A stretch of 64,000 bases of DNA from Phycisphaerales bacterium (GTDB taxonomy: Bacteria > Planctomycetota > Phycisphaerae > Phycisphaerales > UBA1924): contig JAHDXL010000007.1 in the NCBI GenBank assembly GCA_023382935.1, positions 124,001 to 188,000 of the forward strand, given 5' to 3'. The notes beneath the pieces were generated by a model. That model was not told the DNA's origin. It was given only the letters and a program-made list of their open reading frames with translations, and did no database searches. How positions within the stretch are numbered: position 1 is the stretch's first letter; each line of letters begins with the position of its first letter. Positions 711-19,991 of this stretch are shown here, one piece after another. The position numbers were made by a program, and so were the translations under genes.

Positions 711-727
711 TGGCATCCGAGTTGCAT
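711..727 (+). promoter_or_regulatory. Sigma-54 promoter
   Basis: TGGCATCCGAGTTGCAT has GG at 712-713 and GC at 724-725 separated by exactly 10 bases, with a perfect TTGCA -12 element and 5 of 7 matches to the -24 consensus TGGCACG. It would start transcription near 737, giving a leader of about 95 bases before the gene at 833. Confidence 0.75.
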
Positions 728-832
728 GATGGATCTGTCGGACTGGAACGGTGCCGGCAACGAGAAGCGGGAACAGGCACCCAACAACAAACCCTTGGAA
801 GTTCGCAAGCAGTATGAGAAAGAGGTGTGACA

Positions 833-3657: not shown

Positions 3658-3664
3658 GTTTTCG

Positions 3665-5689
3665 GTGGATGCGTCGCGGTCTCAGCAACGGCTCCTGGCG
3701 GGTGCTGTGATGTGCCTTGTGCTGCGTGCCGGGTATGCGCAGTCCATCGAGGATGAGGGACCGATCGTCCTGGGACAGAAGGAGGGACTCAAGGGCTTCA
3801 GGCTGGAGCGTGTGGACGTGGCGCTGCGTTTTGACGGGCGGTGGCGCGAGGAGAAGATCCGGCAGAGCGGGGAGCCGACGCGCAAGAACACAGAAGACCA
3901 GTACGAGGAGTGGGTGGATATTTCGACGCGATCGTACATCGGACATCGCAACCTGTGCGACCTGACGGCGGACCTGAGCCTGGGATGGCAGAACATTGAG
4001 GCGACGAACGAGCTGACCGGGCTCGACCAAAGCGACTCTGGCACGCTGTCGACGTACAACATCAGCGCGCTGCTGCTGGGCGAGAGTAAGGCGCCGACGA
4101 CGGTGTACGCCAACCAGAGCCGAACGCTGTTCGACCGCGAATTCTCCGGGTCGTACGACAGCACGCTGAGCGAATACGGCGCCATCGTGACCACGTTCAT
4201 GGACACGGCGCCCACGACGTTTCAACTCTTCCACCGCGAGCAGGATGATGACGAGCAGTTCGGATTGGCCGACTATCACCTGACGCAGGACACGCTGTCG
4301 GTGCACAGCGACTGGTCGCCGACGGAGCGTCAGAACCTGCTGATCGACTACGCACTTGACCGGGTCGACGAAAGCCGGGGAAGCATCTACACCAACAGTT
4401 ACGATCGGCACGATGCCACCATCACGCACACCCTGAGGTTCGGGCCGGAAGATCGTCACAGCCTGCGGTCGTCGCTGCGCATCTACGACCAGAGCGGAGA
4501 CTATGCCCAGAGCACATATCGACTCGATGAAATCCTGCGCCTGCGGCACACCGACCGGTTCGAGACGCGCTATGACCTGACCGGCGAGCAGCGAACCACG
4601 GGGGGACGCGACCAGAACCGGTATCGGCTCAGCGGACTGGCGCGACACAAACTGTTCGACAGCCTGGTCACGACGTTTAGCCTTGGCGCTTCGCAGACGA
4701 CCATGCCGGACGAAAACTTCACGTCCGACGAGTACTTCACCACGCTGAACTTCGACTATGTCAAGCGCGTGCCGTACGGGCAGTTCAACGCGGGGCTGGG
4801 TCTGAACCTGGACAACATCAAGAACAGCGACCGGGGGGACACCATCCCGTTTCGGGACGAGCGAGTCACCTTCAACGACCCCCTGCCGGTGATCATCGCG
4901 CGGCGGAACATCGTCCCAGAGTCGGTACTGGTCACCAACCTGGCTGGAACGTATGTGTACGTCGAGGGTCTGGACTACACACTGTCGGCCTTCCCCGACC
5001 GCATCGAACTGCGGCGCGTCGTCGGCGGGGCGATCGCCGATGGGCAGACGGTGCTGGTCGACTTCGACCTGGGCCCCGAGCCGGCCAACTCGATCGATTC
5101 GTTCACGCACACCATCGTGCTGCGTTACACGATCCAGGAGGGCAGGCTGCGCGGGCTGTCAACGTACCTGACCTACAGCGACGTGAGCCAGGAACTCGAT
5201 GCGGTCGACCCCTCGCTTTTCACCCTCAACGACCAGACGCGGCTGCTGCTGGGGACCGAACTGCGTCGCGGACCGGTGACGCTGACGGCTGAGCACGAGG
5301 ATGTGTCTTCGGATATCTCACCGTACACGCTGCTGCGGCTGCAGGCACGCTACGACCAGCGGCTGGGGGCGCGTTCGTGGGTGTCGCTGGAAGCGACGCA
5401 CGAAGAGGTCGATTACGGGCAGACTGACCGGTCGGTGGAACTGAACCGCCTGACGGGCGAAATCGGGCGGATGCTGGCGCCCGGGCTTCACGGACGGCTG
5501 CGCCTTCGCTACCGTGACGAAAGCGACAACATCGGGGGAGATACGCGGGGTTTCGAGGAGTTGGCCGAGTTGAAGTACACCCGCGGACAGACGGACCTGT
5601 ACGCGACCGTGCGATATTCGCAGTTGGAAAGCGATGCCACCGATACCCAGTCGCAGTTGTTTTCATTTGGACTTCGTCGTGCGTTCTAG
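3665..5689 (+). CDS. Outer-membrane beta-barrel protein (porin-like)
   Basis: A 674-residue protein. The GTG at 3665 is chosen because AAAGGAG ends about ten bases earlier and a signal peptide (hydrophobic core AGAVMCLVLRAG, then YAQ) follows at once; an upstream ATG at 3572 lies inside the previous gene. The mature part is rich in alternating polar/aromatic strands (for example the RYRLSGLARHKL and LRLRYRDESDN stretches) and ends in Phe, as expected for a Bam-inserted barrel. It lies between two NHL lipoproteins and multiheme cytochromes, the arrangement of porin-cytochrome conduits of MtrB or OmbB type. I see no sequence motif that proves homology to those families; the role is inferred from context. 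Confidence 0.8.
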   Translation: MDASRSQQRLLAGAVMCLVLRAGYAQSIEDEGPIVLGQKEGLKGFRLERVDVALRFDGRWREEKIRQSGEPTRKNTEDQYEEWVDISTRSYIGHRNLCDLTADLSLGWQNIEATNELTGLDQSDSGTLSTYNISALLLGESKAPTTVYANQSRTLFDREFSGSYDSTLSEYGAIVTTFMDTAPTTFQLFHREQDDDEQFGLADYHLTQDTLSVHSDWSPTERQNLLIDYALDRVDESRGSIYTNSYDRHDATITHTLRFGPEDRHSLRSSLRIYDQSGDYAQSTYRLDEILRLRHTDRFETRYDLTGEQRTTGGRDQNRYRLSGLARHKLFDSLVTTFSLGASQTTMPDENFTSDEYFTTLNFDYVKRVPYGQFNAGLGLNLDNIKNSDRGDTIPFRDERVTFNDPLPVIIARRNIVPESVLVTNLAGTYVYVEGLDYTLSAFPDRIELRRVVGGAIADGQTVLVDFDLGPEPANSIDSFTHTIVLRYTIQEGRLRGLSTYLTYSDVSQELDAVDPSLFTLNDQTRLLLGTELRRGPVTLTAEHEDVSSDISPYTLLRLQARYDQRLGARSWVSLEATHEEVDYGQTDRSVELNRLTGEIGRMLAPGLHGRLRLRYRDESDNIGGDTRGFEELAELKYTRGQTDLYATVRYSQLESDATDTQSQLFSFGLRRAF

Positions 5690-6719
5690 CCTGGCTTCCA
5701 TCCTGATGCTGATGCTCGCGTTGGGCGTGGGCTGTGCTTCCAAGCCGGGCGAGTTGTTCGCCAGCCCAGGGATCAGGCCGTCGTGGCCCGCGCCGCCGGA
5801 GCGCCCGCGCGTACGCTACGTGGGCGAGTTGGCACAGGACATCGACCTCAAGCCCGGGCGCAAGCCAATGGAGGGGTTGCGGCGGGCGCTGTTCGGCAGG
5901 GAGTCTCCGCGGGAGATGGTCCGTCCGCTCGACGTCTGCTCGGACGGGGGCCAGCGCGTGTTCGTGGCTGATCCGGGTGGGCGGGCGGTGCATGTGTTCG
6001 ACCTGGGGACTCGGGCGTACGGCCTCTGGGCTCCGCCGAAGCAACCGATCGGTTTCCGGCTCCCGGTCGGGCTGGCGTGGGATCCACGTGGCCGGCTGGT
6101 CGTGTCTGACTCGGAGGCCAAGGTGCTCTTCGTGTTCGACGCGAGGGGAACGCTGTTGGGGACGCTGGGGGAGAACATGCTGGCCAGGCCCTGCGGCGTG
6201 GCGGTCGATGCCGGGCGTGATCGCATCTATGTCGCCGACGCCGGGGCGCACCAAGTCGTGGTAATAAGCGCCGACGGCACGGAGATCGGGCGGATCGGGC
6301 GCCGCGGCACAGGACCGGGCGAGTTCAACTTCCCGACCGACGTGGTGCTCGGGCCTGACGGGTCGATCGTGGTGAGCGATTCGCTGAACTTCCGCGTGCA
6401 GGTGCTCGATTCGGGAGGGGGATTCGTGCGCCAGATCGGGCAGAAGGGCGACATGCCGGGCTACTTTTCGCAGCCCAAGGGCGTGGCCATCGACCCCGAG
6501 GGACACCTGTACGTGGTGGACGCAAACTTCGAGGCTGTGCAGGTTTTCAGCCCCGACGGCGCGCTGCTGATGAGTTTCGGGCGTGAGGGTCGCAGGGCCG
6601 GCGAGTTCTGGCTTCCGTCGGGAATTTCGATCGATGCGAGCGCGCGGATCTGGATTGCCGATTCGTATAACAAGAGAATCCAAGTGTTCGAGTATCTTCC
6701 GGAGGGGGTCGAGCCATGA
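5679..6719 (+). CDS. NHL-repeat beta-propeller lipoprotein
   Basis: A 346-residue protein starting at GTG 5679, which overlaps the barrel stop by 11 bases. The ATG at 5706 is an alternative but would shorten the signal peptide. The signal ends in GVGC, the same lipobox as the protein at 1681. About six NHL blades follow (repeats of the IYVADAG, IVVSDS, LYVVDAN and IWIADSY type). It is homologous to the first half of the 1681 product. NHL propellers are binding scaffolds; here the partner is probably a cytochrome or the barrel. It is translationally coupled to the next gene through ATGA. Confidence 0.88.
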   Translation: MRSSLASILMLMLALGVGCASKPGELFASPGIRPSWPAPPERPRVRYVGELAQDIDLKPGRKPMEGLRRALFGRESPREMVRPLDVCSDGGQRVFVADPGGRAVHVFDLGTRAYGLWAPPKQPIGFRLPVGLAWDPRGRLVVSDSEAKVLFVFDARGTLLGTLGENMLARPCGVAVDAGRDRIYVADAGAHQVVVISADGTEIGRIGRRGTGPGEFNFPTDVVLGPDGSIVVSDSLNFRVQVLDSGGGFVRQIGQKGDMPGYFSQPKGVAIDPEGHLYVVDANFEAVQVFSPDGALLMSFGREGRRAGEFWLPSGISIDASARIWIADSYNKRIQVFEYLPEGVEP

Positions 6720-8320
6720 GGCGCGTTGCCGGAGTACTTGCGTGGGCGATGCTGGGCAGCGCTGCGGGCGCCCAGTTCAGCAGCGTGGTGGACAGTCCGC
6801 ATAACCTGTCCACTTCCGGGCCCGGGGCGATCCGGGCGACGAGCGAGGAAGAGGTTTGCATCTTCTGCCACGCGCCGCACAACTCGACGCCGATCCGTCC
6901 GTTGTGGAACCGGGCGATGCCGCTGGAGGCTTACACGGTCTACACGAGCCGTGCGCTGGACGCCGAGCCTGGGCAGCCGACGGGTGACTCGAAGATGTGC
7001 CTGTCATGTCACGATGGAACGATTGCGCTGGGGGCGGTGGCTTCACGGTCGATGCCGATCAGCATGATGGGCGGCGTGACGACGATGCCAGTCGGCGCTG
7101 GGTTGATCGGCACTGACCTGCGCGATGATCACCCGATTTCCTTCCGCTTTGACGCCGGCCTGGCGGCCACGGACCCAAAGTTGCGCCACCCGGCCCAACT
7201 TCCGCCCGAGATTCGGCTGGACGTCAACAGCGAGATGCAGTGCACCACCTGCCACGATGCGCACAACAACGCGCGCGGCAAGTTCCTCGTGCTCGACAAC
7301 ACCAGTTCGCAACTGTGCACCTCCTGTCACCAGGTGGGCACCACGACGATCACCGAGCACCAGGATTGCAACGCCTGTCACCAGCCGCACTCGGCCCCGA
7401 GCGGGCCCTATCTGCTTCGCTCCGCGACCGTGGCCGATACTTGCCTCAACTGCCACGACGGAGCCCATGGTGCGGTGGACATCGCCAGCGTCTTGCGGCG
7501 TGCATCTGTGCACGAAACTTTCGAGGGGGTGGATCAGCCTGATCCATACCAGCAGCACGCGACCTGTTCGGACTGCCACGAGCCGCACACCATGTCTCAC
7601 GGCACGGGCACCGCACCGGTGATCCACGACAACTTCGGGCGCGTGAAGGGTGTTTCCTCTTCCGGTGTGCTGCTCGCCGCGGCCAACTACGAGTACGAGG
7701 TCTGCTTCCGCTGCCACGCCGAGGGAGCGACGGTCCAGCCGTATCTCCCGCGACGTATCGTGCAGAACAACACGCGGCACGAGTTCAGCCCGACGGCTGT
7801 GTCGTTTCACCCCGTCGCCGGGCCGGGGCGCAACCCCGACGTACCCAGCCTCAAGCCGGGCTGGAGCGAAGCAAGCGTGATGTACTGCAGCCACTGTCAC
7901 GGCACGGACAATGCCGGCGCCGGCATGGGGCCGCAGGGTGTGCACGGGTCCAACTTCCGCCCGATCCTGGTTGCCAACTACGACATGGCGGACCACACCA
8001 GTGAAAGCGCCCAGGCCTACGCGCTGTGTTACCAATGCCACGATCGCGCCAGCATCCTCAACAACGACTCTTTCAGCGGGCACCGGCGGCACATTGTTGA
8101 GGAACGCACTCCCTGCTCTGCCTGCCACGACGCGCACGGCATCTCCTCGCTCCAGGGTAACGCCACCAACAACTCGCACCTGATCAACTTCCGCACCGAC
8201 ATCGTCTTTCCCGAACCAAGTACGGGGCGCCTGGAGTTTCGCGACACAGGGGCGAACAGCGGAACTTGCACGCTGCGATGCCACGGCGAAAACCACCTCG
8301 ATGAGAGGTACCCCGACTGA
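6716..8320 (+). CDS. Secreted dodecaheme cytochrome c
   Basis: A 534-residue exported protein whose ATG overlaps the previous stop (ATGA at 6716). A Sec signal peptide covers residues 1-20. I count eleven CxxCH sites (CIFCH, CLSCH, CTTCH, CTSCH, CNACH, CLNCH, CSDCH, CFRCH, CSHCH, CYQCH, CSACH) and a final CTLRCH of the CxxxCH type. The N-terminal third resembles the tetraheme proteins at 1-1423. As the last gene of the 1681-8320 unit it is the best candidate for the wire through or outside the barrel at 3665, but this is inferred from position. Confidence 0.92.
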   Translation: MRRVAGVLAWAMLGSAAGAQFSSVVDSPHNLSTSGPGAIRATSEEEVCIFCHAPHNSTPIRPLWNRAMPLEAYTVYTSRALDAEPGQPTGDSKMCLSCHDGTIALGAVASRSMPISMMGGVTTMPVGAGLIGTDLRDDHPISFRFDAGLAATDPKLRHPAQLPPEIRLDVNSEMQCTTCHDAHNNARGKFLVLDNTSSQLCTSCHQVGTTTITEHQDCNACHQPHSAPSGPYLLRSATVADTCLNCHDGAHGAVDIASVLRRASVHETFEGVDQPDPYQQHATCSDCHEPHTMSHGTGTAPVIHDNFGRVKGVSSSGVLLAAANYEYEVCFRCHAEGATVQPYLPRRIVQNNTRHEFSPTAVSFHPVAGPGRNPDVPSLKPGWSEASVMYCSHCHGTDNAGAGMGPQGVHGSNFRPILVANYDMADHTSESAQAYALCYQCHDRASILNNDSFSGHRRHIVEERTPCSACHDAHGISSLQGNATNNSHLINFRTDIVFPEPSTGRLEFRDTGANSGTCTLRCHGENHLDERYPD

Positions 8321-8644: not shown

Positions 8645-10102
8645 TCAGTCCGGCATGGCGCCGCCGTCGGATGCGCTCTGCCCGTCTCCGTTCGCCGGTT
8701 CGCCCGTCGGCTCGGGAGTCGGATCCGGCGTCGGGGCGACTCCGGGCTTCGGGGTATAGGGCGCGATCTGCTTGACCAGGGGCGGGCCCCCGCGGTCGTA
8801 ACTCTTGGCAGTGTGACAGCCCGAAGCACATGACCCGCCGACTTCCGTCTGCTTGAAGTTCAGCGGGATGCGCCACTGTCCGTAGGGCACCGATTCGACG
8901 ATGAGCGGCTTGGTCTCCGCGGCGTGGTTGTTGTGGCAGGCGACGCACCCTCGCCCCTGCTCGGGCTCGGTGACGTGGACGTAGTGCAAGTTGCGCGTGC
9001 CGTCGCGGAAGTTGGTGCCGGTCGTCGTTTCCTTCTCCAGCGCCAGTTCTTTCAAGTGGCACGTGAAGCACAGCGCGTACGACTCGAGATTGAAGGGCTG
9101 GTAAAACCGGTCCGAATAGGACGCCTTGAGCAGGAAACTCAACTTCGACCCGTGCGGGTAGTGGCACCCGGTACAGGTCTGATCCTTGATCGGGCCGTGC
9201 AGGAAGTGCTTCTCGGCCCGTACTTCGGCGACAGACTGCACCACGCGGTTGTCGGTCAGTTTGATCGGCTGGTCGTGACAGTCGAGGCAGGCGCCCACGC
9301 CGTCTTCAGCGATGAGTTTCTCGTGCGAACTGGCATGCGGCTGGTGGCAGTTCAGGCAAGCGCGGTCCTCGAACACCGCCGAGTGCTTGTGCTCGGCCGC
9401 CAGGGCCTCCTGCTCCTGCCGCTCGTGGCACGAGACGCACAGGGCCTTGGGCTCCATCGTCAGCGTGTGCGGAAACTCGGAGGAGTGTGGCAGGTGGCAC
9501 TTGAGGCAGTCTTCGGCTGCCGGCTCGTGCACGTCCTTGGCGTGCTCGATCTTCATCGCCACCGGCTCGTGGCAACTCAGGCAGAGTTTGCGGCTGGGCA
9601 TGGTGAGCAGCCTGGGCTCATCAGCGCTGTGTGAGCGGTGGCACTCGTTGCAGCGTCCTTCAGCCGCGGGCGCGTGCTTGAACGAGCCGTGCGAGGTGTC
9701 CTCGTGGCAGGTGATGCACAGGTCGCCGACGACCCTGGTTTTCATCAGCGTGCGCGTCTCGCCGCCGTGGGGGTTGTGGCACGTGGCGCACTGGCCCTTT
9801 CCGAATGGCTCGTGGACGACCGGACCGTCGGGTCGGACCTTGTCGATGTGGCAGAAGGCGCACAGGTCGGTGCCGGTGTTCTTGAGTTTGAAGGTGTGCT
9901 TCTCGGGCAGGTCGTACACGTGGCAGACGTCGCAGGCGCCCACGGCCGCGGGCCCATGCACGAACTTGTGGTCCACGACTGGCGCGTGGCACCCGCCTTC
10001 GGTGCAGTTGAGCACGCGAATGGTGGGGGGCGTCGCGGGGTCGGGCTGGGCACGCGCCAGCGTGGCGGCCGACGCGAGCAGGATGAAGGCGATGCGTCTC
10101 AT
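8645..10102 (-). CDS. Secreted multiheme cytochrome c, 13 to 15 hemes
   Basis: A 485-residue protein. The start is the ATG at 10102, which forms ATGA with the stop of the upstream NapC-type gene; a signal peptide (MRRIAFILLASAATLARAQ) follows. Thirteen CxxCH sites are present, plus a CTEGGCH (Cx4CH) near the N-terminus and a CASGCH (Cx3CH) near the C-terminus. Most repeats have the form CxxCHxPH, as in doubled-CxxCH cytochromes. The Pro-rich C-terminal tail is probably disordered. It is co-transcribed with the NapC-like protein from the sigma-54 promoter at 11703, so it probably takes electrons from that inner-membrane quinol-linked cytochrome. Confidence 0.92.
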   Translation of the reverse strand: MRRIAFILLASAATLARAQPDPATPPTIRVLNCTEGGCHAPVVDHKFVHGPAAVGACDVCHVYDLPEKHTFKLKNTGTDLCAFCHIDKVRPDGPVVHEPFGKGQCATCHNPHGGETRTLMKTRVVGDLCITCHEDTSHGSFKHAPAAEGRCNECHRSHSADEPRLLTMPSRKLCLSCHEPVAMKIEHAKDVHEPAAEDCLKCHLPHSSEFPHTLTMEPKALCVSCHERQEQEALAAEHKHSAVFEDRACLNCHQPHASSHEKLIAEDGVGACLDCHDQPIKLTDNRVVQSVAEVRAEKHFLHGPIKDQTCTGCHYPHGSKLSFLLKASYSDRFYQPFNLESYALCFTCHLKELALEKETTTGTNFRDGTRNLHYVHVTEPEQGRGCVACHNNHAAETKPLIVESVPYGQWRIPLNFKQTEVGGSCASGCHTAKSYDRGGPPLVKQIAPYTPKPGVAPTPDPTPEPTGEPANGDGQSASDGGAMPD

Positions 10103-11604
10103 GGCCGGTCCGCTTCCGGGGCTTGGCGAGCCTGGGCGAGTTTGCCCTGCGCCTGTTCGAGGAGGCTCTGGGTGTACGTCGGGTTGTGCACGCCCCAACT
10201 CCCGTCGACCTTGACGATGTTGATCAGGCCGCGCGCCTGCGCCACCAGGGCCTTGGCCTCGTCGCTGGTGGCGAGTGGCTCGGTCTCGGCCAGCGCCTTC
10301 TCGGCCGCCGCGTAGAGCGCCTTGGTCGCGTTCTGCCACAGCGGGACCATCTTTTCGCCGAAGCCGGGCTGGTGGCAGCGGTTGCACGCCTCTGGCGTGG
10401 CGGCGTGCACGCGGGCCGGACTGGTCGGGTTGGAGTGCAGTTCTCGCGCGCTGATGTGGCACCCGTTGCAGTCGACGTGCGCGAGGAACATCGGATTGAT
10501 CGCCTCCTCGGGGCGTCCGGTGGTCGCGCCGGCCAGGGCATATTCGCTGCGCTGGATCGAGTGCTGGTCGATGTGGCACTGGCTGCAGTCAAACTGCTCG
10601 AGCGACATGGTCTGGGCTGCCGGGCCGTGCTTGATCGTGCCATGGCAGTTGAAGCACTCGACCTTGTGCCGACCGAGCGAGTGGATGCGATGCATGTCGA
10701 TCGAGTCGGTCACCCGCTCGACGCCGAAGTTATGGCAGACCAGGCACGAGCCGTCCTCGATCGCCGGGGGCGTGGCGGTCACGCTGCGGTGGCACGACAC
10801 GCACGCGGCCCCAAAAGACAGAAACTCGCTGTGGTTGACCTCGATGCCCTGATACTGCACCAGCGTGTTGGGCGCATCGTGGCACGCCGTGCAGTGGTTC
10901 GGGGGCACTGGTTCGGCGCCGGGCGGCGTGGGCGGACGAGTCACCATCAGCGATGCGTCGGAGACAGCCGGCAGGCCCGCGGTGATCTCGGCAATCACCG
11001 GACGAACTTCCATGCGGATCGACGGCGTCAGGTCCTGCCCAGTGCCCGTGGCGCGCAGTTGGATCTCGATCGGAGCCGTCTCGATCAGGTGGCAGGTGAT
11101 GCACACGCCGGTGTTGACTTCAAAATGCTGGTCGCCCTTGACGTGCGAGTGGCAGGTGGAGCACGAAATCTCGACGCCGAGGTGGTGAGCGCCCAGGTGC
11201 TTGTCATGCCGGAACTTGAACCGGTCGGTGACGATGGCCTTCGTGTTGAGGGTCTCGATGGTGTGGCAGCCCGAGCGCGTGCAGGAGAGCACGTTGACCG
11301 AGGCCGACGGCTTGGTCGAGGTGCGGTTGAGCACGTCATCGACGACCTGGCCGAGACCATTGAGTTTGGCGGCCACGAAGTTGCTGGCGCCGGGGCTGAT
11401 GTGGCACTTGACACAGGCAACATTTTTATGCGAGCCGGTCGCCCAACTGTCGTAGTAGGGTCCCATGATGTGACAGGTGTTGCAGAACCCGCTGGACGAG
11501 GTCAGTTCGACCAAGGCGATGTTGCCGACGACGAATATGACCAGCGCGATAGGGACCAGTCGCTTCCATTTCTTGACCCAGAGCCAACGAAATGCTCGAC
11601 GCAT
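10099..11604 (-). CDS. NapC/NirT-type membrane-anchored multiheme cytochrome c
   Basis: A 501-residue protein with one N-terminal membrane helix (about residues 16-35), followed by the NapC/NirT-like start of the heme domain (CNTCH then HIMGPYYDSW, CVKCH). In all there are eleven CxxCH sites and one CTRSGCH (Cx4CH). Classical NapC is about 200 residues with four hemes, so this form is extended. The family oxidises quinol in the inner membrane and passes electrons to periplasmic partners. The start at 11604 has AGAAAGG eight bases upstream. The C-terminal 90 residues are helical and lack hemes. It is the first gene of a two-gene unit under a sigma-54 promoter. Confidence 0.9.
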   Translation of the reverse strand: MRRAFRWLWVKKWKRLVPIALVIFVVGNIALVELTSSSGFCNTCHIMGPYYDSWATGSHKNVACVKCHISPGASNFVAAKLNGLGQVVDDVLNRTSTKPSASVNVLSCTRSGCHTIETLNTKAIVTDRFKFRHDKHLGAHHLGVEISCSTCHSHVKGDQHFEVNTGVCITCHLIETAPIEIQLRATGTGQDLTPSIRMEVRPVIAEITAGLPAVSDASLMVTRPPTPPGAEPVPPNHCTACHDAPNTLVQYQGIEVNHSEFLSFGAACVSCHRSVTATPPAIEDGSCLVCHNFGVERVTDSIDMHRIHSLGRHKVECFNCHGTIKHGPAAQTMSLEQFDCSQCHIDQHSIQRSEYALAGATTGRPEEAINPMFLAHVDCNGCHISARELHSNPTSPARVHAATPEACNRCHQPGFGEKMVPLWQNATKALYAAAEKALAETEPLATSDEAKALVAQARGLINIVKVDGSWGVHNPTYTQSLLEQAQGKLAQARQAPEADRP

Positions 11605-11687
11605 GCGGCGGGCACCTTTCTGTTCCCCTGAGTCGGGGATGTGTTCAAGTCGGGCGCGCGCACCACACGCCCGGCGGTCCAATCTGC

Positions 11688-11703
11688 TGCATATCCCGTG
11701 CCA
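11688..11703 (-). promoter_or_regulatory. Sigma-54 promoter for the NapC-like operon
   Basis: On the minus strand, TGGCACGGGATATGCA has a perfect -24 element and an ATGCA -12 element, with GG and GC exactly 10 bases apart. Transcription would begin near 11677, about 70 bases before the ATG at 11604. Two TCTC-N6-GAGA repeats lie 40 to 85 bases upstream. Confidence 0.8.
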
Positions 11704-11740
11704 TTTCCGGACCTGTGAGAAGCGAGGGATCGCAGAAGCG

Positions 11741-11758
11741 GTTCTCAAACCGGAGAAC
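11741..11758. promoter_or_regulatory. Putative enhancer inverted repeat GTTCTC-N6-GAGAAC
   Basis: GTTCTCAAACCGGAGAAC is an inverted repeat with perfect six-base arms. It contains TCTC-AAA-N3-GAGA, the same core as at 637-650 and 11775-11788. It lies between the two divergent sigma-54 promoters and could serve both. Confidence 0.65.
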
Positions 11759-11773
11759 AAGATCCATAAGTAC

Positions 11774-11789
11774 GTCTCAAATTTGAGAC
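11774..11789. promoter_or_regulatory. Putative enhancer: 16-bp perfect palindrome
   Basis: GTCTCAAATTTGAGAC is perfectly palindromic and contains the shared TCTC-AAA-N3-GAGA core. Its centre is 32 bases from that of the neighbouring repeat, about three helical turns, so two activator dimers would bind on one face. It lies about 80 bases from each of the flanking -24/-12 promoters. Confidence 0.7.
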
Positions 11790-11852
11790 AATCAGAGAGA
11801 ACCTACGGCAGGAGAGGTGAAGGGACCGGGTACCCACACAAAGACCCATCCC

Positions 11853-11869
11853 GGGCACGCCGTTTGCAA
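11853..11869 (+). promoter_or_regulatory. Sigma-54 promoter for the regulator operon
   Basis: GGGCACGCCGTTTGCAA has GG at 11854-11855 and GC at 11866-11867, 10 bases apart, with a perfect TTGCA and 6 of 7 matches at -24. It faces the gene at 11924 and the response regulator at 12551, implying positive autoregulation. Confidence 0.8.
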
Positions 11870-11923
11870 CGTAGAGTCTGAAGAACAGGATGCCGCTCCG
11901 GCGGCTTGGCGAAGGAGTGAGCC

Positions 11924-12526
11924 GTGACACGAATTGTCGCATTGACGTCGGTTGCCCTTTTGGTGGGGGTGGTCGGCGGGATTCAGCAGAGCAAGCAAAC
12001 CCAGCCCGGGAGCGTGCCCCCCGGCCATCCGGCGATTGGTGCCGAGCCGCCGCCGGCCGAGCCGTCACCCCCGGCCAAGCCGGAGGACGTGGCGTCGATC
12101 GATGCGATCATCGGGGCGTACTACGCCGCGTCGTCGGCCGCGGCCGGCGAGCCTCGACAGTGGGAGCGTCTGCACTCGCTGTTCAAGCCCGACGCGCGGA
12201 TGATCGCCTGCCGTCCGATTGACAGGAAGGCCGACGTGTGGCTGCTGCCGATCGGCGATTACATCGCCTTCAACGCCGCGTACATGCAGAGCGGGGGTTA
12301 CTTCGAGAAGGAAGTGGCGCGGCGGGTGGAGAGTTTCGGGCACATCGCGCAGGTGTGGAGCACGTATGAGGCGCGCAAGTTAGCCGATTCTCCCGAGCCG
12401 TACTCGCGGGGCATTTACAGTTTCCAGTTGCTCCATGACGGGGATCGGTGGTGGATCATCAACGCCTACTGGGACTACGAGCGCCCCGAGTCGCCGATCC
12501 CGGAGAAGTATTTGCAGACGCCTTGA
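11924..12526 (+). CDS. Small secreted NTF2/SnoaL-like protein
   Basis: A 200-residue protein with a GTG start preceded by GAAGGAG. An N-terminal hydrophobic segment (about residues 5-20) is a signal peptide or anchor, followed by a Pro-rich linker (residues 27-52). The remaining part (AIIGAYYAASSA, WERLHSLFKPDARMI, then strands ending in DRWWIINAYWD) has the pattern of a cone-fold NTF2-like domain. Neither substrate nor activity can be read from the sequence. It lies between the sigma-54 promoter and the regulator gene, 24 bases upstream of the latter, and could be a periplasmic ligand-binding or sensory accessory. Confidence 0.75.
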   Translation: MTRIVALTSVALLVGVVGGIQQSKQTQPGSVPPGHPAIGAEPPPAEPSPPAKPEDVASIDAIIGAYYAASSAAAGEPRQWERLHSLFKPDARMIACRPIDRKADVWLLPIGDYIAFNAAYMQSGGYFEKEVARRVESFGHIAQVWSTYEARKLADSPEPYSRGIYSFQLLHDGDRWWIINAYWDYERPESPIPEKYLQTP

Positions 12527-12550: not shown

Positions 12551-13936
12551 GTGAGCAAGTCGATACTCCTGGTCGAGGACGAGAACCTGCTGCGCGAGTC
12601 GCTGGCCGAACTCCTGCGCGAGGAGCGCTACGAGGTCGTCGAGGCGAGCAACGGAAAGCAGGCGTATGACCTGGCGATCGAGCGCGGGTTTGACCTGGTG
12701 GTCACGGACATCCGCATGCCGGAGATGGACGGGATGGAGTTGCTCGGGCACCTCCAGCGCATCGCGCCGCAGACGCCGGTGGTGGTTATCACCGCGTTCG
12801 GCACCGTGAACAGCGCCGTCGAGGCGATGCGGGTAGGGGCGGCCGATTTCCTGCTCAAGCCCGTGCAGTTCGAGGACGTGCTGGTGCGCGTGCAGCGGGC
12901 GCTGGAGTTCGGAGAACTGCGACGAGAGCGGCGCGTGCTGACCGAGCAGTTGGCCGCCCAGAGCACGTTTCACAACCTGATCGGCGAGTCGCCCACCATC
13001 CTGCGGATGTTCGACTCGGTGCGCAAACTGTCGACGGTGCGGTCGAGCGTGCTGGTGGTGGGCGAATCGGGCACGGGCAAGGAACTGTTCGCGCGGGCGA
13101 TTCACTACAACGGGATCACGCGCGACAAGCCGTTCGTGGCCGTCAACTGCGGGGCGATCCCCGAGAGTCTGATCGAGTCGGAACTGTTCGGACACCGCAA
13201 GGGCGCGTTCACGGGCGCGGTGCGAGATCGGATCGGATACTTCGAGGCGGCCAACGGGGGCACGCTGTTCCTGGACGAAATATCGACTCTGCCGCTGGCG
13301 GTGCAGAGTTCGCTGCTGCGCGTGCTCGAGGAGCGCGTGGTCGTGCCGGTGGGCGACACGCGGGCCAGGCCGGTGGATGTTCGCATCATCGCGGCGACCA
13401 ACCAGGAACTGAAGGACCTGTGCCGCGAGGGACGCTTCCGCGAAGATCTGCTGTTCCGGCTGGACGTGGTGCGCCTGCACATTCCGCCGCTGCGTCAGCG
13501 CCGGCAGGACATCCCCCTGCTGGTTCATCACTTCCTGGACAAGTACACGAAGGAGATGAACAAGAACGTGCTGGGGGTGACCAACGCGGCGATGCGGGCG
13601 CTGCTTAACCACGACTGGCCGGGCAACGTGCGTGAACTGGAAAACGTGATCGAGCGGGCGGTGATTTTCGCGGAAGGACGCGAGGTGGATGTTTCAGACC
13701 TGCCGTTCGCCGCCCCGGAGGGCGACGAGGACACCGGCGAGGATCTGAAGCAGGCTCTGTCGCAGTATGAGCGACAGCACATCATTTACTCGCTGCGTCG
13801 CCACAATTATGACAAGGCCGAGACCGCCAAGCACCTCGGCATCGGCATTTCGAGTCTGTATCGGAAGATGGATGAACTGATGATCCCGAAGGATCTTCAG
13901 CAGTTGGATGCGTCGATGTCGCGGACGGGAACATAG
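12551..13936 (+). CDS. NtrC-family sigma-54-dependent response regulator
   Basis: A 461-residue protein with GTG start. An N-terminal receiver domain (residues 1-120) carries phospho-acceptor Asp53 in [12 protein letters not shown]. The AAA+ domain has Walker A GESGTGKE (171-178), the sigma-54 contact loop GAFTGA (218-223), a GGTLFLDE Walker B region and RFREDL. The C-terminal helix-turn-helix (about 410-445) is of the Fis type. All residues needed for sigma-54 activation are present. It precedes two sensor-kinase genes and is surrounded by four -24/-12 promoters, so it most likely controls the cytochrome genes and ResB/CcsA. Confidence 0.95.
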
Positions 13937-13995: not shown

Positions 13996-15006
13996 ATGCT
14001 CCGGCGCAAACTGCTTGCACGACTTGGCGTGCTGGTGCTGGGCTTTGTCTCCATCGCGATTGTCTCGATCGCGCTGCTCCAGGGGATCCTCTCGGATCTC
14101 AACCAACTGGGGGCGCAGGCGGTCCAGCTGATCGCCAAGGTGCAGGATCTCGGCGACCTGGCCGACGAACTGCCCGTAAGCGCGGGTGACGAGCGGGATC
14201 GGATCGTTGCGAAGATGATCGGGTTGCACGCCGACCTTGCCGCTCAACACGTGATGCATGAAGGTCAGCCGGGCTTCGAGGCTCACGATCGGATCGGGCA
14301 GACGCTGGCGGGCCTGCAGGCCGGGGGCGACACCAGCGGTGAAATGCTCGACGCGCTGCATGGCGACGTGGTTGAACTGCGCAACGTGGCGCGCGACTCG
14401 GTCGCGTCCGAGCAGTGGCGCGTCAGCCGCAACCTGCGTGTCCTGATCATCGGCCTGACGGCAGCGGCTCTGGTGATGGTCAACCTGAGCGTGATCGTGC
14501 TGCTGCGGACGGGCACGATGATCCTGCGTCCGGTGTCGGCGCTGCTGGAAGGGAGTCGGCAACTGGCGGCCGAGCGTTTTGATCATCGGGTCCGGGTGGA
14601 GCAGGCCGACGAGTTTGCCGAGTTGGCCCATGCGTACAACGCGCTGGCAGAACAGTTGGGGGCCAATGAGCAGCGCAAGGTCGAGACGCTCCAGCAGTTG
14701 GCCATTACGCTCAACCACGAGTTGAACAACGTGATCAGTGTGATCGAGTTGCAGTTGAAGTTCCTGGACCGCAAGGCCGGGGGCGACCAGGCGCTGGGTG
14801 GGCACCTGCGCCAAATCCGCGAGAGTCTGGGTAAGATAGCAGTGACGGTGGCGTCGCTGAAGGACGTGCGCCGGATCGTGGTGACGGACTACATCCCTGG
14901 GCTCAAGATGCTCGACCTTCCCAAGTGCACCGGGGACGAAGGAGGGTCCGACGAGGAGAAGGGCGTGGTCGAGGTTCGGAGTCTTCCCCGGCCGGTTCGA
15001 TCATGA
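13996..15006 (+). CDS. HAMP sensor with histidine-kinase-like helix but no ATPase domain
   Basis: A 336-residue membrane protein. Two transmembrane helices (about 8-30 and 150-172) enclose a helical periplasmic sensor domain; a HAMP domain follows (about 173-230). The next helix contains an H-box-like LNHELNN with His241, followed by a dimerisation-like segment and a short tail (YIPGLKMLDL). There are no N, G1, F or G2 boxes, so it cannot phosphorylate itself. The next gene starts inside its stop codon (ATGA at 15003) and supplies a complete catalytic core. It may be a sensory partner or decoy substrate for that kinase. GAGGAGG precedes the ATG. Confidence 0.88.
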   Translation: MLRRKLLARLGVLVLGFVSIAIVSIALLQGILSDLNQLGAQAVQLIAKVQDLGDLADELPVSAGDERDRIVAKMIGLHADLAAQHVMHEGQPGFEAHDRIGQTLAGLQAGGDTSGEMLDALHGDVVELRNVARDSVASEQWRVSRNLRVLIIGLTAAALVMVNLSVIVLLRTGTMILRPVSALLEGSRQLAAERFDHRVRVEQADEFAELAHAYNALAEQLGANEQRKVETLQQLAITLNHELNNVISVIELQLKFLDRKAGGDQALGGHLRQIRESLGKIAVTVASLKDVRRIVVTDYIPGLKMLDLPKCTGDEGGSDEEKGVVEVRSLPRPVRS

Positions 15007-16337
15007 CGGGTCAGTCCCGCGACGTGTTCGCTTCCATGCTGCGTGAGGAGTTGCGTTGGATCATGCAACTCCGGTGGGCGGCCGCTGCCACGGTCGTGCT
15101 GCTGGGCATGCTGCACGCGCTGCTCGGTCCGCTGTTCGAGCACAAGGTTGAGATCATCGCGGTAGGGCTGGCGATGCTGGCTTGGAACACCTGCTTTGCG
15201 CTGGCGGCACCGAGGCGGAGGAACAGAGATGGAATCCCGCTGGCGCTGGTGGCGTGGGCCCACCTGGGTGTCGACTTGGTCTGCCTGACCCTGCTGACGC
15301 TGTGGACCGGCGGGGCCCTCAGCCCGCTGCTTCCGCTCTACGTGATCCACATGGTTTTTGCCTCGGTACTGCTTCCCCGCGTGCAGGCCTTTGTGGTCTC
15401 GCTGCTGGCCGTCGCCCTTCTGGCGCTGGGTCTGCCGATGGTCACGGGCTGGCCCACCGATCCGAGGCAGAGGGTCATTCTGCTGGGGTGGGCGGTGGCG
15501 CTCCCGTTGTCGGTGTACGTCGTCAATCGCATTACGCGGGAGTTGTTCCGGCTCGAGCACGAGCGATTGCGCACACGCGGGCGCCTGCGGAAGATGCGCC
15601 GTCGGCTCGATGCCCAGCAGCGGGCGATGGTGCAGCATGAAAAACTGGTTTCCATGGGTCAGTTGGCCGCCGGGGTGGCGCATGAAATCTCCAACCCCCT
15701 CGCCGGCATGGACGGGCTGCTGCAACTGATGGCCCGGCACCCTGACAAGCCGCGCCCGGAGGCCATCGCGACCCTCCGAGAGCAGGTGGCTCGCATTCAG
15801 GCGACCGTGCGTCACCTGACCGGCATGGCCCACCCAGATCTGGGCCAGACCGAGGCGGTGGACGCCAACGCCCTCGTGCGGGACGTGCTCGACACCCTCA
15901 GGTTTGACCACCGCTTGCGGAAGGTGCACCTTTCGCTCGAACTGGATGAAGCAACCGGCTCGGCCCAGATCGTCGCCCGGGCTATGCACCAGGTGCTCAT
16001 CAACCTGGTGTTCAACGCCTTGGACGCGATGGAGGGCAAGCCTGACGCCACGCTGGTGTTGCGGACGAAGCGCGAGCGGGACTGGTGCCTGATCGAGGTG
16101 GAGGACAACGGGCAGGGCATTCCGTCGGCCGCCTGGGATCGTGTTTTCAGGCCCTTCTACACGACCAAGCCGGTCGGGAAGGGGACCGGGCTGGGGCTGT
16201 CGATCAGCCGCGGACTGGTGCGCGGACAGGGTGGCGAACTGACATTCCGTAGCGAGGTGGGCAAACGCACGACGTTCAGCGTGCGGGTGCCTGCGGCGAC
16301 GGGTGTTCCGGCATCGCTCGATTCGATGCCGACGTGA
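15003..16337 (+). CDS. Membrane sensor histidine kinase
   Basis: A 444-residue protein with about six N-terminal membrane helices (residues 20-170) and little extracytoplasmic sequence, so it may sense within the membrane or through the upstream HAMP protein. HisKA contains His227 in VAHEISNPL. HATPase motifs are complete: NLVFNALDAM (N box), DNGQGIP (G1), FYTTKPVGKGTGLGLSI (F/G2). The likely target is Asp53 of the regulator at 12551. Translational coupling to the previous gene suggests a fixed ratio of the two membrane proteins. Confidence 0.93.
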   Translation: MTGQSRDVFASMLREELRWIMQLRWAAAATVVLLGMLHALLGPLFEHKVEIIAVGLAMLAWNTCFALAAPRRRNRDGIPLALVAWAHLGVDLVCLTLLTLWTGGALSPLLPLYVIHMVFASVLLPRVQAFVVSLLAVALLALGLPMVTGWPTDPRQRVILLGWAVALPLSVYVVNRITRELFRLEHERLRTRGRLRKMRRRLDAQQRAMVQHEKLVSMGQLAAGVAHEISNPLAGMDGLLQLMARHPDKPRPEAIATLREQVARIQATVRHLTGMAHPDLGQTEAVDANALVRDVLDTLRFDHRLRKVHLSLELDEATGSAQIVARAMHQVLINLVFNALDAMEGKPDATLVLRTKRERDWCLIEVEDNGQGIPSAAWDRVFRPFYTTKPVGKGTGLGLSISRGLVRGQGGELTFRSEVGKRTTFSVRVPAATGVPASLDSMPT

Positions 16338-16380: not shown

Positions 16381-16397
16381 TGGCACCCGGCTTGCAT
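16381..16397 (+). promoter_or_regulatory. Sigma-54 promoter for resB-ccsA
   Basis: TGGCACCCGGCTTGCAT has GG at 16382-16383 and GC at 16394-16395, 10 bases apart, with a perfect TTGCA and 6 of 7 matches at -24. The leader before the ATG at 16574 would be about 165 bases. It contains GTTCTCAGAAGTGGGAAC (16506-16523), a near copy of the enhancer repeat, here downstream of the promoter. Confidence 0.8.
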
Positions 16398-16573
16398 AGA
16401 GTTCCAAGACGGAGTGAGAAGTGAACTCGAAAGTCCAGAAGGATGCGAGATGGCGGCTTTCGAGGGCGGGAATCGCGGGCGTTTGAAGAAACATGGCTCT
16501 TGCGGGTTCTCAGAAGTGGGAACGCACGGGCCGACGACGGTCGGCCGACGAGCCGATTGATCGGGGGAACGTG

Positions 16574-18469
16574 ATGAAAGCGCATCGATCGTGGCACAGC
16601 ACGCCGTTCGGACGGGTGGCCCGCTTCCTAGGCGGGCTGAGGCTGGCGGTGCCGGTGCTCGTGCTGACGGCGATCGCACTGGCGTGGGGAACCTACCTGG
16701 ACTCGACGCAGGGCGCCTCGGTGGCGATGCGGGTGGTCTATGGCTCGCCGTGGTTCATCGCGATCATGGCGCTGGTGTGCGTATCGCTGATCTTCGCGGT
16801 CGTGACGCGGTTTCCGTGGCAGCGTCGGCACGTGGGCTTCATCAGCGTCCATGCCAGCCTGATCCTGCTGATCGTCGCGGGCTTCTGGTCCCTCTTCGGG
16901 CGCGAAGAGGGGCGGGTGGCGCTGCAGGAGGGGCAGCAGGAGTCGTTCATGGAAACCACCGAGCAGCGGCTGGAACTGCTCGAGATGATCAACGGCGTCC
17001 CGACCGTGGTGGCGGCGGCGCGGGCCGAGAAAATCTCCGGGCGCGTGCGCCTGGATGACGTGGTGGTGGAAGTGACGGGGCGGTGGGGAAACATCGCCGA
17101 GGAGCAGTACGTAGCCGACGACGGGCCAGAACCGTTGCGGGCGATCGAGTTGATCCCGTCGGCCGGGATGTCGCAGACGATGTGGATCGGGCAGGCCTCG
17201 CGGAGCGGTGGACCAGCGGCGATCGGGGGCATGTCGCTGCGTCTGCTGGGCCCGAACGAGACGTGGGCGCCTCCGGCCGCAGTGGGCGATCAGCGCGGCA
17301 AGTACTTCTTCGTGCGCGAAGGTCAACGCTACGAACTGGGCGAGGTCGGCTCGGAGGTGTTCCCCGGCTGGCGCGTCGCAGAGATCAAGCGGTTCAAGTC
17401 GGCGATGGTGGGGCAGGGCGGGCTGACCGAAGGCGACGGCGACAACCCGGCGGTGGACGTGACAATCACCGATGGCAAGGGAACGGTCGAGCGGCACACG
17501 GCGTTCGAGAAGTTCCCGGACATGGTCATGCCGGGCAAGCGGCTGTCGGGCGACGCAGTGTCGGGCGCGAGTCTGACGCCGGGCGGAAACGCCGGGCAGT
17601 CGCTGGTGGTGCATGGGCCGATCGATGCAATCAAGGTGACGTATTACGGGGCGGACGGGTCGGTGCAGGAAGTGTCACAAGAAGGCCCGCTGCCGTGGAC
17701 TTTTGAGATCGCCGGTCGTCGGATGACCATTGTGAACCAGGTGAGCCGCGCGCGGATGGCCAGCAGGTTCGTCGAAGCACCCGTCGTCGGTGACAACTAT
17801 CGCCCGGCGCTGCTGGTGCGCCTGGCGGGGGTAGAAGGCGACTCGCGGGCGCTGGCGTGGAAGTCCACAATTCCCCTGATCGAACAGGGTCGGACCCGGA
17901 TGCTGAGGTACGGGCCCCGGATCGTGCATCTGCCGTTCACGGTGTACCTCAAGGACTTCCGGAAGATGGACTATCCGGGAACGCAGATGGCAATGGCGTA
18001 TGAGTCGGACGTGCGCGTGGCCGTTCCGGGGCAGGGCGATCAGGATCTGACGATTTTCATGAACAACCCGTACGTGCACGGGCCCTGGAAGGTGTATCAG
18101 TCGGGCTTCGTGGGCGACGACCTCTCGATTTTCAGCGTGATGAAGGACCCGGGGCTGACGTTGACGTACATCTCGTGTACGACGCTGTGCCTGGGAATGC
18201 TGGTGACGTTCTATAGCCGTGCGTTCAGTGCGGGGCATCCGGGGATTGCGATGCCCTTTGCCAAGAAGGAGCAAGGACATGCCTCGTCTGTGTCTGTGGC
18301 TGAGTCTGTTCGTCGCGGTTCTGTGCGGTCCGGTTTGGGCGCAAGGTCAGGACTGGAAGAAGGAGATGGGCTCGATCCCGGTGCAGCACGGGGGGCGGGT
18401 GATGCCGCTGGACACGTACGCGCGGCACCTGGCGGTGCAGTTGACGGGACGGTCGAAGTGGGCGGCTGA
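16574..18469 (+). CDS. resB: ResB-like cytochrome c maturation protein
   Basis: A 631-residue system II cytochrome c biogenesis protein. The ATG at 16574 follows GGGGGAACGTG. Membrane helices near residues 20-40, 55-75 and 85-105 and one near 535-555 flank a large periplasmic domain, the usual ResB/Ccs1 layout. It works with CcsA to deliver heme and attach it to CxxCH sites. The last 65 residues (after PFAKKEQ) are low-complexity Gly/Arg/Ala and overlap the ccsA gene by 191 bases in another frame; they lack visible domain structure. A frameshift near 18270 or a naturally read-through tail are both possible. Confidence 0.9.
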   Translation: MKAHRSWHSTPFGRVARFLGGLRLAVPVLVLTAIALAWGTYLDSTQGASVAMRVVYGSPWFIAIMALVCVSLIFAVVTRFPWQRRHVGFISVHASLILLIVAGFWSLFGREEGRVALQEGQQESFMETTEQRLELLEMINGVPTVVAAARAEKISGRVRLDDVVVEVTGRWGNIAEEQYVADDGPEPLRAIELIPSAGMSQTMWIGQASRSGGPAAIGGMSLRLLGPNETWAPPAAVGDQRGKYFFVREGQRYELGEVGSEVFPGWRVAEIKRFKSAMVGQGGLTEGDGDNPAVDVTITDGKGTVERHTAFEKFPDMVMPGKRLSGDAVSGASLTPGGNAGQSLVVHGPIDAIKVTYYGADGSVQEVSQEGPLPWTFEIAGRRMTIVNQVSRARMASRFVEAPVVGDNYRPALLVRLAGVEGDSRALAWKSTIPLIEQGRTRMLRYGPRIVHLPFTVYLKDFRKMDYPGTQMAMAYESDVRVAVPGQGDQDLTIFMNNPYVHGPWKVYQSGFVGDDLSIFSVMKDPGLTLTYISCTTLCLGMLVTFYSRAFSAGHPGIAMPFAKKEQGHASSVSVAESVRRGSVRSGLGARSGLEEGDGLDPGAARGAGDAAGHVRAAPGGAVDGTVEVGG

Positions 18470-19991
18470 CCGCGGGCCCGCGGGCTACGCCGGACGCGAG
18501 CCGATCGAACTGCTGTGTGAACTGTGGTTCCGTCCGCAGCAGTTCATGAACAATGCGTTCATCGACATCGAAAACCGCCCTTTCAAGAAGGCCGTCGGGC
18601 TTGCGGAGGAGGATCGGTTTTTCACGCCGATGCAGGTGGCCACGGCGCCGGGGATCAACGAGGTGCTGTCGGGGTTTATGCGCCGGCAGCAGGCGGATAG
18701 CAAGGCGCAACCGAAGGGGCACGAGAAGATCGCGCTGGAACTGAGCAGCGCGATTGATCGCATTTCGACTTTCGCGGGCGGGGCGCAGTTGCCCATCGTC
18801 CCGCCGGCCACGGGGAACGTGTATCTCAAGGTCGGGCCGACGGGCGGCGAGCCCGGAACCGAGCAGGTTCGACAGGCGCTGGCGGCGGTGCGAGCGGCGT
18901 TCATCGCCGGTCAGCCGATGGAGGGCCCGGTGGCTCAACTGGTCGAGGCGGTGCACCAGGCCGGGCAGGTAAGCGCAAAGGACATGCGCTCGGTGCGGTT
19001 GGAGGCGTTTTACAACAGCCATCGCCCGTGGCGGATGTCGGCGTATGCGTACGGGCTCTCGATCGTGGTGTTTGGTCTTTCGCGCCTGGTCTTCCGCAAG
19101 CCGCTGTTGATCCTGGCGATCGCGCTGGGGGTGTGGGGGGCCGGCGAGCAGGTGCTCGGGACGGCGCTGCGGACGATGATCCTGCAACGCGCGCCGGTGA
19201 GCAACACCTATGAGGCGCTGCTGTGGATGGGACTGGTGGCGGTGGGCATCGGGCTGATTGCGCAGTTGCTCAACCGCAAGGCGTGGTACCTATTCGCGGG
19301 TGTGTGCGCGGCGTTCGCGTCTGTGCTGTTCGCAGGGCTGGTGCCGCTGGAGTCGCAGACCAACGCGCTTCCCGCGGTGCTGCGGAGCAACTACTGGCTG
19401 GTCGTGCACGTGTTGACGATCACGGCCAGTTACGGCGTACTGCTGGTGGCGTCGGTGCTGGGGCACGCGTACCTGTTCAAGTACGTGATTCTCGGGAAGA
19501 CGGCCGAAGCGGTCGAGGGCGGGCCTCGCGCGTCGCACCCGCTGATCGTGCAGACCTATCGGACGATCCAGGTGGGGCTGTTCCTCCTGACCGCCGGGAC
19601 GATCCTGGGCGGGGTGTGGGCGGCCGACTCGTGGGGTCGCTTCTGGGGCTGGGATCCCAAGGAGACTTGGGCACTGATCAGCATCGTGATCTACTTTGCC
19701 ATTCTGCATGCACGGCACATCCGCTGGCTGCGCGACTTCGGGATGGCGATGTGGGCAGTGCTCGGGTTCATCGCGATCGTGTGGACGTTCTACGGCGTCA
19801 ACTACGTCATGGCGACGGGGCTGCACAGTTACGGATTCGGCAGCGGCGGCGAAGTTTGGGTAGGGCTGTGGGCAATCGCGGAAGTCGCGTTCATGATCGT
19901 CGCCCGCGTGCGCTTCGTGCAACTGCGCAAGGCCGGTCGCATCCCCGATGAGCGTCCGATGAAACTGAAGGCGCCGCCGAAGACGGCGTGA
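18279..19991 (+). CDS. ccsA: CcsA/ResC-type cytochrome c biogenesis protein
   Basis: A 570-residue protein. The ATG at 18279 is chosen because GAAGGAGCAAG precedes it and a signal-like helix follows. Residues 25-250 form a soluble periplasmic domain, followed by about eight membrane helices. The heme-handling WWD-type motif WGRFWGWDPKETW is intact near residue 460, with conserved histidines in VVHV, LHARH and GLHSYG. Together with ResB it forms the heme export and ligation machine. Its place in this locus under sigma-54 control matches the very high demand for heme attachment by the neighbouring cytochromes. Confidence 0.95.
   Translation: MPRLCLWLSLFVAVLCGPVWAQGQDWKKEMGSIPVQHGGRVMPLDTYARHLAVQLTGRSKWAADRGPAGYAGREPIELLCELWFRPQQFMNNAFIDIENRPFKKAVGLAEEDRFFTPMQVATAPGINEVLSGFMRRQQADSKAQPKGHEKIALELSSAIDRISTFAGGAQLPIVPPATGNVYLKVGPTGGEPGTEQVRQALAAVRAAFIAGQPMEGPVAQLVEAVHQAGQVSAKDMRSVRLEAFYNSHRPWRMSAYAYGLSIVVFGLSRLVFRKPLLILAIALGVWGAGEQVLGTALRTMILQRAPVSNTYEALLWMGLVAVGIGLIAQLLNRKAWYLFAGVCAAFASVLFAGLVPLESQTNALPAVLRSNYWLVVHVLTITASYGVLLVASVLGHAYLFKYVILGKTAEAVEGGPRASHPLIVQTYRTIQVGLFLLTAGTILGGVWAADSWGRFWGWDPKETWALISIVIYFAILHARHIRWLRDFGMAMWAVLGFIAIVWTFYGVNYVMATGLHSYGFGSGGEVWVGLWAIAEVAFMIVARVRFVQLRKAGRIPDERPMKLKAPPKTA

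Follow-up and report, generated by a model that had tools for sequence, protein, structure and literature searches.

The divergent gap and its genes

The window, i.e. the whole 64-kb stretch of DNA analysed here (G000:C7:124001-188000; G+C 65%), comes from a 3.7-Mb draft genome with a single rpoN gene (Sigma54_DBD, E 5e-59). A 319-bp gap (11605-11923) separates multihaem cytochrome genes on the minus strand from the genes of a two-component regulatory system on the plus strand. The genes and the sequence elements of the gap are:

8645-10105, minus strand: multihaem cytochrome with doubled CXXCH (PF09699; DmsE-like match below cut-off; 13 CXXCH; start codon not fixed)
10099-11604, minus strand: multihaem cytochrome with NapC/NirT N-terminal region (PF03264; NrfH-like match below cut-off; 11 CXXCH)
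11688-11703, minus strand: P-, -24/-12 promoter TGGCACGGGATATGCA, predicted to serve the divergent multihaem cytochrome operon
11742-11757, no strand: operator 1, TTCTCAAACCGGAGAA, inside the palindrome 11741-11758
11774-11789, no strand: operator 2, GTCTCAAATTTGAGAC, a perfect loop-less palindrome 32 bp from operator 1
11853-11868, plus strand: P+, -24/-12 promoter GGGCACGCCGTTTGCA, predicted to serve the regulator operon
11924-12526, plus strand: small, probably exported protein, first gene of the regulator operon (signal-peptide-like start by eye)
12551-13936, plus strand: NtrC-type response regulator (REC, sigma-54 activation AAA+ and Fis-type HTH domains by Pfam), the proposed activator
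13996-15006, plus strand: HAMP sensor with an LNHELNN H-box-like motif (no ATPase domain by Pfam)
15000-16337, plus strand: histidine kinase (HisKA + HATPase_c)

The preliminary description had placed divergent -24/-12 promoters on either side of the gap and, between them, the palindromes GTTCTC-N6-GAGAAC at 11741-11758 and GTCTCAAATTTGAGAC at 11774-11789. On re-reading of the sequence both promoters were confirmed, and the positions of the palindromes proved exact, with centres 32 bp apart. P- and P+ have the same GG-N10-GC spacing in a TGGCAC/TTGCW context, with one mismatch each outside GG/GC (A for T in P-, G for T in P+). The palindromes are copies of one site, 79% identical in register. 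Since they are three helical turns apart, the two operators lie on the same face of the DNA. The pair thus looks like a tandem EBP enhancer (UAS): a repeated palindrome, in phase, within ~200 bp of a promoter.

The response regulator has the attributes expected of a sigma-54 activator. The phospho-acceptor Asp is present in all 26 regulator orthologues compared, and the GAFTGA motif in 22 of them, the other four having GSFTGA. The HTH motif SSLYRK is found in 26/26 orthologues, and TTLYKK in four compared paralogues. Among solved structures, the regulator's best relative is the NtrC-family protein 4l4u. When the protein was compared with NCBIfam equivalogs (NtrC, ZraR, AtoC etc.), the best 25 of 120 families all scored below cut-off.

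The small protein encoded by 11924-12526, whose gene precedes the regulator gene in most orthologous loci mapped, is probably exported, judging from its N-terminus. It had no Pfam match, and an orthologue matched SnoaL_2 weakly (E 0.021). Foldseek matches of its structural model (mean pLDDT 61, low confidence) were ketosteroid-isomerase/NTF2-like structures, which suggests, at low confidence, an NTF2/SnoaL-like fold. The HAMP sensor, standing beside a complete kinase, is possibly a split or accessory kinase; its LNHELNN/LNHDLNN-like box was seen in 18 of 24 orthologous stretches scanned. Both the NTF2-like protein and the HAMP sensor could take part in sensing. As to the minus-side cytochromes, the putative label 'quinol-linked' takes its basis solely from the NapC/NirT region; a NapC-type search of 31 relatives gave a match in 14.

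Chance levels and operator matrix

Among 4000 Markov-shuffled stretches of 165 bp, a 6-N6-6 palindrome occurred in 6%, a perfect 16-mer palindrome in 0.5% and both in 0.25%. The 64 kb contain four exact GGCAC-N6-TGCA matches, of which P- and P+ make up two; they are also two of the four window sites scoring at least 20, where Markov shuffles gave an expectation of 0.8. An exact -24/-12 match at 63389 lies inside ORFs. Counts of looser motifs over the whole window were near chance (23 vs 16.9 expected and 32 vs 27.7 expected). It is conservation and recurrence that raise the observation well above chance.

A 16-bp operator matrix was built from 18 sites of 10 orthologous gaps (consensus ~TTCYCR-N4-YGRGAA). 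In the 64-kb window scores above 10.4 were obtained at four positions only: 16507, 11774, 11742 and 635.

Conservation in orthologous gaps

A search of 163 genomes of the family revealed regulator orthologues of at least 64% identity in 25 other genomes, and a cut-off orthologue in G025. With the source genome this makes 27 regulator-bearing genomes, leaving 136 without the gene. The gap that precedes the small exported gene could be read, and was examined, at 22 of the 27 loci; the others were L060, where the contig begins within that gene, and the distant L075-L078, where the small gene is absent. In a first alignment of 11 gaps the conserved parts were the promoter boxes and the two operator blocks. 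Additional half-sites beside the palindromes (TGAGAAGCG near 11716 and GAGAACC near 11797) matched no conserved block of the alignment, and were not counted.

The preliminary description read the palindromes as a single activator array that could control the cytochromes as well as the regulator operon, and named lack of their conservation in orthologous gaps as a refuting result. Twenty of the 22 gaps contained P+ together with an operator pair of summed score at least 15. The palindromes are thus conserved, and this sequence-level result supports the proposed single array. The two remaining gaps, in G147 (L073; regulator at 73% identity) and G102 (L079), contained neither operator nor promoter. 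The second operator was very weak in L061 (score 3.6) and L070 (4.7).

P- could be compared between gaps with and without divergent cytochrome genes; L079 was omitted because its left-hand gene was not identified. P- (score at least 18.5) was present in 13 of the 16 gaps having divergent cytochromes, whereas it was found in none of the five in which the left-hand gene points in the same direction (Fisher p 0.003). Loss of a promoter along with its gene is what is predicted for a real promoter. These counts bear on the alternative that only one of the promoters is real and enhancer-coupled, the other -24/-12 match driving little or nothing. In favour of such a reading, P- was weak or absent in 3 of the 16 cytochrome-flanked gaps, and L066 has a P+ candidate that scored only 16.5. 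We nevertheless consider it quite unlikely, given the 0/5 versus 13/16 distribution of P- and the two groups into which its distances from the operator fall (see below).

Tandem spacing and helical phase

Spacings of 29-35 bp between operators were tested, and tandems were found at 30-33 bp: there were 22 in 506 kb and none in 1.52 Mb of Markov shuffles. The natural NRI sites of glnAp2 are spaced by ~32 bp.

The distances between P- and operator 1 fall into two groups, 53-56 and 63-66. Those between operator 2 and P+ form groups at 54-55 and 65-66 and a loose third one at 74-79, with 69 and 82 as off-phase outliers. In L058 a site 39 bp from the first operator outscores the one at 33 bp; if it is used, the plus-side distance becomes 63 instead of 69. 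Helical clustering, tested against uniform distances with the best period between 9.8 and 11.5, had p 0.002 on the minus side (n=11) and p 0.015 on the plus side (n=13); in this test relatedness was handled at the genus level, by collapsing same-genus repeats.

Recurrence of the operator module

The other two operator positions of the window belong to a conduit-like cytochrome cluster and to cytochrome c maturation genes:

602-617, no strand: weak operator (score 8.4), 33 bp from its partner at 635
635-650, no strand: operator TTCTCAAATCAGAGAG (score 15.7)
711-726, plus strand: -24/-12 promoter TGGCATCCGAGTTGCA, ahead of the cytochrome 827-1423
827-1423, plus strand: tetrahaem cytochrome (4 CXXCH), heading the conduit-like cluster
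1681-3657, plus strand: NHL-repeat + cytochrome, one ORF as read (five CXXCH)
3572/3707-5689, plus strand: barrel-like protein (no match in Pfam search)
5634-6719, plus strand: NHL protein of the conduit-like cluster
6716-8320, plus strand: 11-CXXCH cytochrome of the conduit-like cluster
16381-16396, plus strand: -24/-12 promoter TGGCACCCGGCTTGCA before ResB/CcsA, the top score in the window
16507-16522, no strand: single operator TTCTCAGAAGTGGGAA, starting 126 bp downstream of the promoter start and lying before the putative ResB start
16574-18469, plus strand: ResB-like cytochrome c biogenesis protein (Pfam; start putative)
18273-19991, plus strand: CcsA/CcsB-like cytochrome c assembly protein (Pfam, NCBIfam)

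A strict tandem pattern had no match in the source genome. Since real sites deviate from such a pattern, a sequence-only tandem model (R1) was used instead. R1 comprised 21 of the 22 tandems, the L067 tandem at 12704 being omitted as it lies inside the ResB coding sequence. At E<=3, R1 detected three tandems only in the source genome (150 of 177 first-look candidates scored), all on one contig and within 13 kb: the gap, the 602/635 pair and C7:122631, just upstream of the window. The C7:122631 tandem adjoins a minus-strand -24/-12 site, which is followed by genes with CcmE, CcmF, CcmB, ABC-transporter and cytochrome-assembly domains. This ccm-type operon, with a further multihaem cytochrome, occupies L080 10907-17622. 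Maturation genes of both kinds, System I-like and ResB/CcsA-like, are therefore present in this genome. Two further matches to the operator consensus in the source genome, C2:186202 and C5:224195, were taken as chance, the 6.5 kb around each having no -24/-12 site of at least 18.5. Nine strict -24/-12 matches were found in the source genome; at eight such loci an operator was present within 250 bp only at ResB, so the operator is not a general companion of sigma-54 promoters in this genome.

In the conduit-like cluster a terminator-like stretch (~1465-1516, by eye) stands between the cytochrome 827-1423 and the remaining genes. Because of this stretch, control of the rest of the cluster (1681-8320) by the 602-726 module is something that we infer. 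In G117 the NHL-cytochrome gene directly follows the counterpart of the tetrahaem cytochrome. The neighbouring and similar cytochrome genes 35-496 and 827-1423 look duplicated, and the operator module is found at the second only; a promoter-like site before the first copy (L080 17710) has no operator. The sequence at 1633-1648, TGGCACGGGATTTGAT, before the NHL-cytochrome gene, is a near -24/-12 match (GA for GC at -12). Full -24/-12 sites stand ahead of the NHL-cytochrome gene in L063, L064 and L071. Of these, L071 was the locus with enough upstream sequence to reveal an operator, and its promoter at 352, directly before this gene, has none. The NHL and cytochrome halves of 1681-3657 correspond to separate matching segments in some relatives. 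Judging by gene content, the cytochromes may serve in extracellular electron transfer, but this is a guess.

The same classes of target recurred in relatives. Ccm-type targets were found in G039, G011, G113, G058 and G152, and the tetrahaem cytochrome counterpart was a target in G117, G058 and G152, and, with weak sites, in G039. In L075-L078 the promoter of the tetrahaem cytochrome is preceded by weak operator-like sites at ~-82 to -85 and -114 to -117. At L189 3688-3933 (G024:C189) an operator-promoter module precedes a cytochrome gene on a contig different from that of the regulator.

For the operator at 16507-16522 a tandem partner was not found. L065 and L059 show the downstream layout again, with operators at +87 to +151 followed by a gene whose product contains CXXCH (by eye). 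In both loci a sigma-54 promoter and tandem operators lie between the kinase and ResB genes (reverse complement; L065 11753-12100, L059 11764-12000). FleQ of Pseudomonas and FlbD of Caulobacter are activators with sites downstream of sigma-54 starts at flagellar targets; the ResB/CcsA operator can be likened to these sites, except that its targets are cytochrome-related, not flagellar.

The ResB-side site, lying within the predicted transcript leader, and the inverted-repeat form of the sites would suit RNA hairpins or terminators as well as DNA operators. For the gap palindromes such a role is very improbable. They lie upstream of both predicted starts and are therefore absent from both predicted transcripts, one of them is a perfect palindrome with no loop, and a tandem spacing of 30-33 bp is no property of hairpins.

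Association of the operator with the regulator gene

The matrix was applied to a held-out set of 15 regulator-orthologue loci, mostly minus-strand loci, that had contributed no site to it; L188, L189 and L192, which were brought in by the operator search, were excluded. In these loci 18 of 26 operators had a -24/-12 site within 180 bp (expectation 1.17, p 7e-19), and the other eight were away from any promoter. At least one operator-promoter pair was present in 12 of the 15 loci. There was none in L060, L073 and L075; L075 had three operators, none of them near a promoter scoring 19. In 77 EBP loci (854 kb, mostly from other phyla) none of nine operators was near a -24/-12 site.

R1 was also run, with stricter filters, over the 163 genomes of the family. 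At E<=0.1 matches were obtained in 15 of the 27 genomes with a regulator orthologue vs 1 of the 136 without; the former figure is partly circular because 14 of the 15 genomes had supplied R1 rows, the latter is not. At E<=0.5 the numbers were 16/27 and 6/136. The R1 matches in G038, G057, G066, G138 and G145 had no -24/-12 site of at least 18.5 nearby, and the match in G141 had one of 18.5 at ~60 bp. Co-occurrence of operator and regulator gene and the invariant HTH motif of the orthologues point to the neighbouring regulator as the probable binder.

Alternatively, the palindromes may bind another transcription factor, such as a redox regulator encoded elsewhere, and merely happen to lie between two sigma-54 promoters. 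The regulator gene and the operator might be inherited together with the cluster, and the ResB operator, being downstream of its promoter, occupies a position that is also open to a repressor. We regard this explanation as unlikely, since in various operons and genomes the operators adjoin -24/-12 sites, since they occur along with the regulator gene, and since their distances to both promoters are helically clustered, as looping would predict. In the distant clade, moreover, some operators lie between the regulator and kinase genes.

Proposed mechanism

On comparison of the sequences we think it very probable that the gap functions as a sigma-54 enhancer shared by two promoters and acting in both directions, at which the 12551-13936 product binds the operators and activates both promoters by looping. 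In the sequence of events that we envisage, the adjoining sensor kinases would respond to a signal by phosphorylating the response regulator, and the phosphorylated regulator would occupy both palindromic operators and assemble there into an active AAA+ ring. DNA looping would then bring the operator-bound regulator to sigma-54 RNA polymerase at either flanking promoter, turning on the multihaem cytochromes leftward and the regulator's own operon rightward. As the regulator operon would be among its own targets, we infer a self-amplifying circuit. Through its copies elsewhere the operator would also place ResB/CcsA, the ccm operon and the cytochrome that heads the conduit-like cluster under this regulator.

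Discussion

By analogy with known systems, every element of this arrangement has a precedent: NtrC enhancers, the divergent orp operons and the loop phasing of qrr. Among the systems closest to the gap is orp of Desulfovibrio vulgaris, in which two divergent sigma-54 operons are served by one EBP (DVU2106) with palindromic sites in the common upstream region (PMC3897727). As in orp, one putative site array lies between divergent sigma-54 operons; in the gap it is conserved with both genes. In orp the gene for the EBP is transcribed from a sigma-70 promoter and is subject to repression by the EBP itself (PMC3897727); in the gap, by contrast, the regulator operon is predicted to be among the two sigma-54 targets, which also include multihaem cytochromes. 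Reconstitution of orp in E. coli required IHF, and in D. vulgaris orp expression was unaffected by deletion of the IHF-alpha gene (PMC3897727).

As at the glnAp2 NtrC enhancer, for which tandem NRI sites are named (PMC4740811), tandem sites of one activator would stand upstream of a -24/-12 promoter; unlike there, the operator sequence is a different one and the pair lies between two promoters. In the same paper 61 putative qrr enhancers (Vibrio, LuxO) are described with loop lengths clustering at ~11-bp steps (PMC4740811), which is a precedent for the distance clustering observed here. LuxO/qrr has a single promoter per enhancer, whereas in the gap the clustering appears on both sides of one enhancer.

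Sigma-54 has been connected with cytochromes in other bacteria. In D. vulgaris EBP genes are divergent from sigma-54 targets that include the octahaem cytochrome ohc operon (DVU3142; PMC4641369). DVU3142 is listed there among one-component EBPs, unlike the two-component regulator described here, which is from another phylum. In Geobacter RpoN was linked to extracellular electron transfer cytochromes by prediction and by means of an RpoN-overexpressing strain (PMC2725144); the parts of that paper drawn on here name no operator or EBP of the present type. Porin-multihaem clusters of Verrucomicrobia have been proposed to function in electron transfer (PMC5615132). The main text of a survey of Phycisphaerae genomes (PMC11266412) contains neither 'sigma' nor 'two-component'. 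In the literature, mostly non-subscription and represented by titles and the starts of abstracts, neither the present operator nor a planctomycete sigma-54 regulon was found among the matches listed.

A more far-reaching reading is that a single tandem enhancer serves both promoters simultaneously, each side being constrained by helical phase. A single assembly of the activator would then couple an uncharacterised planctomycete electron-transfer chain to the activator's own production and, by way of module copies of which some lie downstream of the start, to two cytochrome c maturation systems. As a whole we hold this only tentatively, as a possible but rather doubtful extension.

For a multihaem-cytochrome system of the Phycisphaerales, few of which have been cultured, the analysis provides a concrete candidate operator and candidate regulon. 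The gap and its orthologues offer a natural set of enhancers for studying helical phasing on both sides of the same site. If the proposal is true, these bacteria would build an electron-transfer chain and its maturation machinery together, under one regulator.
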